From Bradyrhizobium sp. CB1717 (GTDB taxonomy: Bacteria > Pseudomonadota > Alphaproteobacteria > Rhizobiales > Xanthobacteraceae), in assembly GCF_029714325.1 (NCBI RefSeq), contig NZ_CP121666.1, positions 8,728,501 through 8,792,500 of the forward strand: 64,000 bases of DNA. The letters run 5' to 3'. Positions 25,026-26,747 of the stretch are shown here, one piece after another. Numbering within the stretch: position 1 is the first letter of the stretch; each line of letters begins with the position of its first letter. The notes beneath the pieces were generated by a model. It had not been told where the DNA came from and ran no database searches. It saw only the letters and a program-made list of their open reading frames with translations. A program made the translations under genes and the position numbers.

Positions 25026-26747
25026 ATGGGCGATACCCAGGTCGCGGACCTGCCGGCTCAGCTCGTGCTGCATGGCGACGAAGATACTCCGCGTGAATTC
25101 ATCGTTGACCTGTTGCGTCGCGTCTTCGGCAAGTCGGAAAGTGAAGCCGCCTCCGTGATTGCCGACATGGGGAGGCATGGCGCGGCAGCCTGCGGTCCCT
25201 ACCCACCACCGGTCGCAGGCGCCCTGCTGGAATCTGCACGGCGTCGTGTCGCTGCCGCCGGCCACCCACTCCTGATCACAAGCGAAACGGCGAAGTCCTG
25301 CTGCGAGCTTTGCGGCCGACCGACCGCGCAGTCGGAAGCACAATTGGTGGACCGCACAGTGTGGCTGTGCGCCGATTGCGTACTCGCAGCAGCAAGCGCA
25401 TCGCAGGACCTCCCCTCGGAGGAGTTCAATTACACGTTCGGTGTCTTGAATTGGCACTTCGCCGATGTGCCGCGAAGTCAGCTGGTGACCACGGTACGCC
25501 AATTTCCTGGCCACATGCGGGCAGACGTCCAGGCCGCCATCGACCGATTATTTGCGTCTCCGGTCCGGCTATTCGGTATCGCCGAGGACCGCCGCTACGA
25601 GACGCTATCCATGTCGAGATTGATGCAGAACGACCGCTTCGCGGCGACGATCGCACCGCTTCAGTACAACGACGTCGATATCGGCGAACCGACACCAGCC
25701 AAGTGCCTCGACAATGGTCTTTGGCTTTGCGCAACCGCCGGTCTCCGCTACGCGGTGCTTCTGGCCATTCATCGTGAATACAGCCGCGAGATCGGCGTGC
25801 GGATCGAAATCATGGCGCCGGCCGGGGCCGCAGGCTCAGCGCTTGTCCAGCAGTGCTTCAGCGCGCTGGAGGACGCCGTTCAGGCCGCGCGCACCTACCG
25901 CGGCAAGATTCTCTCTCTCGATGCCGATTCCGACTACCGTGGGCGCTCGCGCGGGATCACGGTGCACCGGCTTCCTTCCGTCAGTCGTGACGAAGTGATC
26001 CTGCCTGAACAGACGTTACGGCTACTTGATCGCAACGTCCTGAACTTCGTGGGCACGCGAGATGTGCTGCGCCGCCTCGGACAGTCGACCCGGAAGGGTA
26101 TCTTACTCTACGGCCCACCCGGCACGGGCAAGACTCACACCATCCGCTATCTCGCGGCCCATCTGCCCGGTCATACGACGCTGATCATCACAGCGGAGCA
26201 AATCGGCCTGCTCGGCGCCTATATGAATCTCGCTCGCCTCCTGCAACCGGCCATGGTTGTGATCGAAGACGTCGATCTCATCGCGCGGCAGCGCGAGAAC
26301 ATGAGCGGCTGCGAAGAACCGCTGCTCAACCGATTACTTAACGAGATGGATGGCTTGAAGCAGGACGCGGACATCCTGTTCGTGCTGACAACAAATCGGC
26401 CTCAGCAACTCGAAGGCGCCCTAGCGGGCCGCCCCGGTCGCATAGATCAGGCCATCGAAGTGCCGCTTCCCGACGAGACCGGCCGCAACAAACTGGTCCG
26501 GCTCTATGGCCGGGGACTGCCACTCGACGACGCTGTTGTCGCCGAAGCCGCCCGACGCAGCGAGGGCACAAGTTGTGCATTCATCAAGGAATTGATGCGG
26601 CGGCTGGCACAAGCAAGTCTCGCACGCGATGGCGGCAACTCCGTCATTTCCGCGGATATCGACGAAGCCCTCGATGACATGCTGTTCGCTGGCGGCCGGC
26701 TTAATGCGCGACTGCTCGGCGGTGCGCAGGCGATGGCGGCAGGATGA
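25026..26747 (+). CDS. ClpS-like / ClpX-type zinc finger / AAA+ ATPase fusion protein
   Basis: 573 residues from ATG 25026 (AAGGGA seven bases upstream). Three parts are visible. (1) About 12-87: a ClpS-like adaptor domain (LVLHGDEDTPREFIVDLLRR, CGPYPPPVAGALLES, HPLLITSE). (2) About 90-125: C93-x2-C96-x18-C115-x2-C118, the exact spacing of the ClpX zinc-binding domain. (3) After an unassigned 130-345 linker, a classical AAA+ module: Walker A GPPGTGKT (363-370), Walker B MVVIEDVD (410-417, ED in place of the usual DE), LLNEMDGL, sensor TTN (455-457) and arginine-finger region GRPGRID (468-474), closest to FtsH/Cdc48. No protease motif is present. Probable protein unfoldase with a built-in substrate adaptor (inference). 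It stands alone between a terminator and a convergent gene. Confidence 0.88.
   Translation: MGDTQVADLPAQLVLHGDEDTPREFIVDLLRRVFGKSESEAASVIADMGRHGAAACGPYPPPVAGALLESARRRVAAAGHPLLITSETAKSCCELCGRPTAQSEAQLVDRTVWLCADCVLAAASASQDLPSEEFNYTFGVLNWHFADVPRSQLVTTVRQFPGHMRADVQAAIDRLFASPVRLFGIAEDRRYETLSMSRLMQNDRFAATIAPLQYNDVDIGEPTPAKCLDNGLWLCATAGLRYAVLLAIHREYSREIGVRIEIMAPAGAAGSALVQQCFSALEDAVQAARTYRGKILSLDADSDYRGRSRGITVHRLPSVSRDEVILPEQTLRLLDRNVLNFVGTRDVLRRLGQSTRKGILLYGPPGTGKTHTIRYLAAHLPGHTTLIITAEQIGLLGAYMNLARLLQPAMVVIEDVDLIARQRENMSGCEEPLLNRLLNEMDGLKQDADILFVLTTNRPQQLEGALAGRPGRIDQAIEVPLPDETGRNKLVRLYGRGLPLDDAVVAEAARRSEGTSCAFIKELMRRLAQASLARDGGNSVISADIDEALDDMLFAGGRLNARLLGGAQAMAAG

Follow-up and report, generated by a model that had tools for sequence, protein, structure and literature searches.

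In the genome of Bradyrhizobium sp. CB1717, a single gene joins a ClpS domain, a four-cysteine (C4) finger of the ClpX type, a middle alpha/beta domain and an AAA motor in one protein. The gene lies in a window of 64,000 nucleotides (positions 8728501-8792500 of the 9.23 Mb genome, a single contig; the window means this whole stretch of DNA), and the coordinates of its features within the window are collected in Table 1. We read the protein as a receptor for protein N-termini fused to a chaperone or remodeller of the Bcs1/YjoB kind that would not degrade what it binds, an explanation to which we give about an even chance. The closest named proteins, 98% and 92% identical to the window protein, come from Bradyrhizobium, and a Shine-Dalgarno-like sequence, gaaggga, is found just 5' of the ATG at 25026.

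A sequence-only reading of this DNA had placed a ClpS-like domain at about residues 12-87, a C4 finger of exact x2-x18-x2 spacing at 93-118 and an AAA motor in one chain, with no peptidase. This architecture is confirmed in the window gene. A Pfam scan of the protein gave 25 families at E<=1, none of them a peptidase; PF02617 (ClpS) matched residues 12-84 with 40.2 bits (E 3e-10, cut-off 23) and PF00004 (AAA) matched residues 359-481 with 74.1 bits (cut-off 21.2), while the cysteines (93, 96, 115 and 118), the Walker A motif (363-370) and the TTN sensor (455-457) stand at the claimed places. PF02617 reached 44.3 bits at the window gene when the whole genome was searched in six frames, and solved ClpS chains aligned with residues 11-88 (phmmer against PDB sequences, best E 3e-7).

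The same reading had proposed profile searches for both N-terminal modules, a structure prediction of the full chain and a genomic survey. The profile of ClpS scored above its cut-off and that of the ClpX finger, PF06689 (zf-C4_ClpX), missed the window protein's own finger. The AlphaFold2 model (66 aligned sequences, mean predicted local distance difference test score, pLDDT, 85.6; predicted template modelling score 0.69) was likewise strong for ClpS, with block means of 90-97 over residues 11-90, and weaker for the finger, at about 67-73; the middle domain stood mostly at 82-97, with the block 301-310 at 53, and the AAA domain mostly at 85-94, falling to 53 and 75 within residues 421-440. The survey found the architecture again in many genomes, with matches at E<=1e-40 in 127 of 265 Bradyrhizobium genomes, partial, broken and ClpS-less copies included. 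A chance match or a frameshift artefact is ruled out, as many separate genomes share the architecture and it is under purifying selection.

The selection was estimated from 28 intact genes (nine loci were left out, and L076 fell below the search threshold) as median pairwise ratios of nonsynonymous to synonymous substitution (dN/dS), which are rough at median dS values of 0.6-1.1. The ratio was 0.164 in the ClpS domain (359 of 378 pairs usable), 0.175 in the linker plus finger (352 pairs), 0.106 in the middle domain (376 of 378) and 0.059 in the AAA domain (378 of 378), with 0.473 in the ten-residue linker 125-134 (191 pairs). The ClpS domain and the finger are thus under purifying selection.

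In a tree of 66 proteins (69 were chosen, and three without a recognised Walker A were removed; midpoint root), all ClpS-bearing rows fell into one clade of 36 rows with support 100/100, beside relatives made of the middle and AAA domains only. Within this clade P0240 and P0261 lack both modules, and P0260 and P0095 lack the finger. Since the ClpS-bearing rows form one clade with module-less members inside it, a single gain of ClpS and the finger, with later losses in places, is most likely. At loci L066, L068 and L069 (P0261 is the protein of L066), Bradyrhizobium genes 78-81% identical to the window gene carry neither ClpS nor finger and occupy the same place before a tannase gene; the recognition module appears to have been lost there secondarily. 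Another core relative, P0189 (604 residues), gives a weak match to DUF5069 (25.4 bits against a cut-off of 27) where ClpS would be; the core ATPase may be able to take other N-terminal modules.

Outside Bradyrhizobium the family thins out. A family-level survey matched 7 of 149 genomes at E<=1e-30, and an order-level survey with residues 1-310 matched 62 of 347 at E<=1e-6, most rows covering the ClpS part only; by our reading ten of these genomes reach the middle domain, among which G645, from another family, has the full architecture and G491 lacks ClpS. In a survey of the phylum with the middle domain, 7 of 398 genomes matched at E<=1e-10, every one in Bradyrhizobium. Core-only relatives are named from Methylorubrum, Mesorhizobium, Rhizobium, Sinorhizobium, Steroidobacter, Burkholderia and others (best 120 of 2077 matches to the G491 protein). 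The gene is split into two overlapping matches or bears a stop in several genomes (e.g. G309, G382 and G401), and therefore seems dispensable in some lineages; the copy at locus L040 has an internal stop. Relatives carry the public names 'ATP-dependent Clp protease adaptor ClpS', 'AAA family ATPase' and 'cell division protein FtsH', of which the first and last are misleading for this family.

The N-termini were compared in 150 relatives. Of 262 proteins, 159 have 480 residues or more; eight of these without the FPGH motif and one with a short N-terminus were removed, and the set that is left is biased toward close relatives. The pocket register came from the PDB alignment, in which residues 12-88 correspond to 29-105 of E. 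coli ClpS at equal length, and E. coli numbers are used below. According to a review, the ligand in E. coli ClpS is held by N34 and H66 and by the backbone of D35, T38 and M40 (PMC8346999). The window protein retains D35, T38 and P39 in its pocket loop, and of the 150 relatives 144 have D35, 144 T38, 143 P39 and 148 L99. At the N34 place 93 have Asn and 47 Asp, and the window protein has Gly17; the H66 place is Glu in 106, Asp in 22, His in 4 and Gly in 2, the window protein being one of the last two (in the 28 intact genes, Glu 25, Gly 2 and Lys 1), and the M40 place is highly variable. The same review describes the human UBR1 N-domain, a modelled structure, as having a pocket that is kept except for an Asp at the H66 place (PMC8346999), and by this analogy a protein with an acidic residue at that place could still bind N-termini. 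The likeness to the ClpS-like N-domains of UBR1 and UBR2 concerns one site in that published description and may be convergent, and these proteins are eukaryotic ligases without a motor.

The face of ClpS that meets ClpA has changed as well. E79 and K84, which we take to be ClpA contacts, are replaced in the window protein by Pro and Leu; none of the 150 relatives has Lys at the K84 place, 138 have Leu, and E79 is retained in seven. The free ClpS1 of the same genome retains both. Judged by these alignments, the fused domain appears to have left ClpA while keeping much of the pocket. It shares with ClpS the fold, the D35-T38-P39 loop and much of the hydrophobic pocket, and differs from it in being fused to a motor, in the mostly acidic H66 place, in K84 turned to Leu and in an N-terminal tail of about 10 residues.

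The same positions bear on an alternative that we consider doubtful, in which N-terminal recognition has been lost and the ClpS fold serves as a docking or assembly module for an internal partner or a neighbouring subunit, regulating the ring or placing it in the cell. Such a role would fit the rarity of H66, the incomplete retention of N34, the variable M40 place and the two glycines of the window protein, and also the dN/dS of the ClpS and finger segments, higher than those of the middle and AAA domains, and the loss of the module in some relatives. However, D35, T38, P39 and L99 are strongly retained and the ClpA contacts are not, the opposite of what pure docking would lead one to expect, and the acidic residue at the H66 place is also described for UBR1.

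For the finger, PF06689 was not among the 25 families at E<=1 for the window protein, and a genome search with it at E<=1 found ClpX alone and not the finger of the window gene. The C4 pattern is present in 146 of the 150 relatives, with exactly 18 residues between the cysteine pairs in 142. Nine relatives were scanned with PF06689 (cut-off 27); four passed, with 27.8, 28.7, 28.7 and 30.0 bits, these having been chosen because the database already assigned PF06689 to them, and five failed, P0259 with 22.4 bits and the rest without a match at E<=0.01, P0262 having four cysteines and P0260, P0258 and P0189 being finger-less. Precomputed PF06689 assignments occur in 7 of 22 ClpS-bearing rows among the matches listed in a search from the G491 protein, and in none of the closer relatives of the window protein among the matches listed. 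In the reciprocal direction, a profile of 20 family fingers searched against the whole genome (150 of 242 candidates scored) placed the window gene first and ClpX second, at 27.5 bits (E 2.4e-5), with the next at 15.2; as a control, the ClpX finger scored 29.4 bits against 18.0 for the best of 2000 cysteine-fixed shuffles, and the full ClpX chain 23.9. The family thus appears to carry a finger homologous to that of ClpX, with the same cysteine spacing, but set here between ClpS and a different AAA motor. In ClpX the finger dimerises and docks partners.

The motor combines features of two groups of AAA proteins. By AAA sequence it is closest to FtsH, Cdc48 and the proteasomal ATPases, so that the FtsH/Cdc48-like motor of the sequence-only reading holds for the overall sequence, but it fails for the pore segment and for the order of residues in Walker B. 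Among 249 family proteins, of which 13 could not be parsed, Walker A and Walker B are 43 residues apart in 234 of 236 and Walker B reads ED in 235 of 236. The corresponding distance is 51 in FtsH and in both Cdc48 D1 and D2, eight residues more, with DE in Walker B, and 44 in Bcs1, which has ED and a similar gap against FtsH (the comparison covered FtsH, Cdc48 and Bcs1). The window protein has one AAA domain and no peptidase, unlike FtsH and Cdc48. In alignment A1, T455 and R472 are invariant and T456, N457 and R469 nearly so; R469 and R472 are presumably arginine fingers, by known AAA proteins. Bcs1 itself is a mitochondrial membrane protein, and is not known to have a ClpS domain or finger. 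The best structural match of the whole model was YjoB (PDB 7w42) over residues 135-554, at 21% identity and a root-mean-square deviation (rmsd) of 5.2, with ClpS and the finger outside the aligned range. YjoB of Bacillus subtilis has a chaperone role. For the middle domain no Pfam family lies wholly within residues 135-316 at E<=1, and its prediction alone (pLDDT 71) gave no confident fold match.

These features of the motor count against the self-contained N-degron unfoldase that had been proposed from the sequence, in which ClpS would bind Leu, Phe, Tyr or Trp N-termini and the ring would pull the chain through its pore, perhaps onward to a protease. The proposal is borne out in part, by a ClpS profile above its cut-off, by the retention of D35 and T38 and of a large part of the hydrophobic pocket, by a motor whose best sequence matches are Cdc48/p97 and FtsH, and by the presence of ClpA, ClpS1 and a Leu/Phe transferase in the same genome, so that N-degrons can arise there. 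Yet H66 is replaced, the protein has no peptidase domain (no systematic search was made for a ClpP-docking loop), and threading is not favoured because the pore-loop-1 segment is shortened, with the family's near-constant spacing, and Walker B is ED. We consider this explanation unlikely.

An antiphage or other conflict ATPase with exchanged N-terminal sensors is very unlikely: the best PADLOC match is IetA (70.8 bits), the N-termini vary (none, ClpS, ClpS plus finger, the weak DUF5069 match of P0189) and the distribution across Bradyrhizobium is patchy, but the match to IetA falls mainly on the AAA region (residues 315-535), the NCBIfam IetA model gives 67.5 bits against a cut-off of 510, the gene has a conserved place beside a tannase gene, and no protease family occurs among the five neighbouring genes scanned, in which the locus differs from the IetAS system.

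As a receptor joined to a remodeller, the protein would work as follows. The ClpS domain, probably with the ClpX-type finger, would capture a protein through its exposed N-terminus, or through some other docking peptide, and set it at the mouth of a ring built by the middle and AAA domains. A motor of the Bcs1/YjoB kind, with its short pore-loop-1 segment, would not pull an unfolded chain through the pore; a whole or partly folded protein would enter the vestibule and be altered there by ATP-driven movement, the outcome being a chaperone or disassembly action without a peptidase.

Several observations weigh against this reading. The N34/D35/H66 contact set of the window protein is incomplete (Gly, Asp, Gly), and with Gly at both the N34 and the H66 place its own pocket may have been weakened or lost. 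A full-length core is retained in the 4 of 150 relatives that lack the finger pattern and in P0261 and P0240, which lack both modules, so ClpS and the finger are dispensable for that core. The best PDB sequence matches of the motor are Cdc48/p97, and the isolated middle domain matched no Bcs1 or YjoB domain among the matches listed. As to YjoB, its row and that of AFG2 are tied in VIA (19.8 and 19.2), and the Foldseek superposition is loose (rmsd 8.9, TM-score to the query 0.42). In Bcs1, moreover, the short pore loop 1 contacts substrate, and a short loop alone does not exclude work in the pore.

Table 1. Positions in the window of the gene and of the features of its protein
Feature	Position	Strand	Basis
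Whole gene, ClpS - C4 finger - middle domain - AAA	25026..26747	+	ATG 25026, stop ends 26747, 573 residues
ClpS domain, residues 11-88	25056..25289	+	PF02617, PDB ClpS chains, pLDDT 90-97, median dN/dS 0.164
N-degron pocket loop, residues 17-23 (E. coli ClpS 34-40), G-D-E-D-T-P-R here	25077..25097	+	PDB-alignment register
Gly49, aligned with His66 of E. coli ClpS	25170..25172	+	150-relative alignment
C4 finger, ClpX-type, C93-x2-C96-x18-C115-x2-C118	25302..25379	+	Cys pattern, Cut-off of PF06689 passed in some more distant relatives; ClpX matched by the family-finger profile
Middle alpha/beta domain, residues 135-316, no Pfam family	25428..25973	+	Pfam scan, full model
AAA domain, residues 317-560	25974..26705	+	PF00004 74.1 bits; median dN/dS 0.059
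Walker A GPPGTGKT, residues 363-370	26112..26135	+	G363, G366, G368 and K369 invariant, T370 nearly (alignment A1)
Shortened segment at FtsH/Cdc48 pore loop 1 and helix 2, residues 390-407	26193..26246	+	8-residue gap; similar in Bcs1
Walker B VVIEDVD, residues 411-417, ED as in Bcs1	26256..26276	+	Family comparison
Sensor TTN 455-457 and candidate arginine fingers R469/R472	26388..26441	+	Alignment A1

Downstream of the window gene lies a convergent tannase gene (PF07519, 585.6 bits), which has the same placement in 33 of the 37 related loci compared (6 kb flanks, some ending at contig ends), and the idea of a mobile element is unsupported. Genes for an HlyD protein and an MFS pump stand upstream in 21 of the 37 loci and not in the other 16, which argues against a fixed operon with the pump. 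The five neighbours scanned encode TetR, HlyD, MFS, tannase and GntP permease proteins, without a protease family. Elsewhere in the genome ClpS1 is encoded about 0.3 kb before ClpA, and there are a second ClpS and a Leu/Phe-tRNA-protein transferase; because ClpS1, ClpA and the transferase are present, the ordinary N-degron pathway appears to exist, and the window gene would be an addition to it. A frame of 273 residues (C1:478871-479512, minus strand; L003, L129) has a ClpS match of 70.7 bits after a weak ClpA N-domain (29.6 bits, model positions 2-150), a putative second ClpS fusion without a motor. Among the related loci, L057 comes from a record under the name Frankia sp. RB7, yet the complete Bradyrhizobium locus is there in synteny, and the organism name is probably wrong; L066:832-5335, from a metagenome-assembled contig, by our reading contains a chemoreceptor start and an enoyl-CoA-hydratase-like gene each twice, possibly an assembly fault.

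The joining of ClpS, finger and AAA motor is undescribed as far as searches of the open-licence literature show; no ClpS-AAA fusion occurs among the papers listed in them, and a 2003 article on the ClpS module by Lupas and Koretke (J Struct Biol) may mention fusions. Searches for YjoB likewise listed no paper on its structure. In the available parts of PMC1779556 and PMC7159879 the term 'ClpS domain' refers to a gene neighbourhood and to an insertion in vWA proteins, and the ClpS passages of PMC7966870, PMC12258705 and PMC5515868 mention no ClpS-AAA fusion.

In its fullest form, which we put forward tentatively, the reading is that the family may include the first bacterial N-recognin fixed to a non-degrading motor: with a UBR1-like acidic pocket, and having left ClpA with the loss of K84, it would take chosen proteins by the N-terminus and pass them to a vestibule of the Bcs1/YjoB type, where they would be refolded, assembled or disassembled and not proteolysed. 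It would have arisen once, when an older core ATPase acquired ClpS and a ClpX-type finger. In the N-degron pathway as known from bacteria a free adaptor reads the N-terminus and the outcome is degradation by ClpAP. A reader fixed to a motor without a peptidase would, if the reading is true, give the N-terminal signal a second outcome, and would offer a one-chain system for studying adaptor, docking finger and motor together. The acidic H66 place, shared with UBR1 as it has been modelled, would make what a ClpS pocket needs testable on a domain of about 80 residues.
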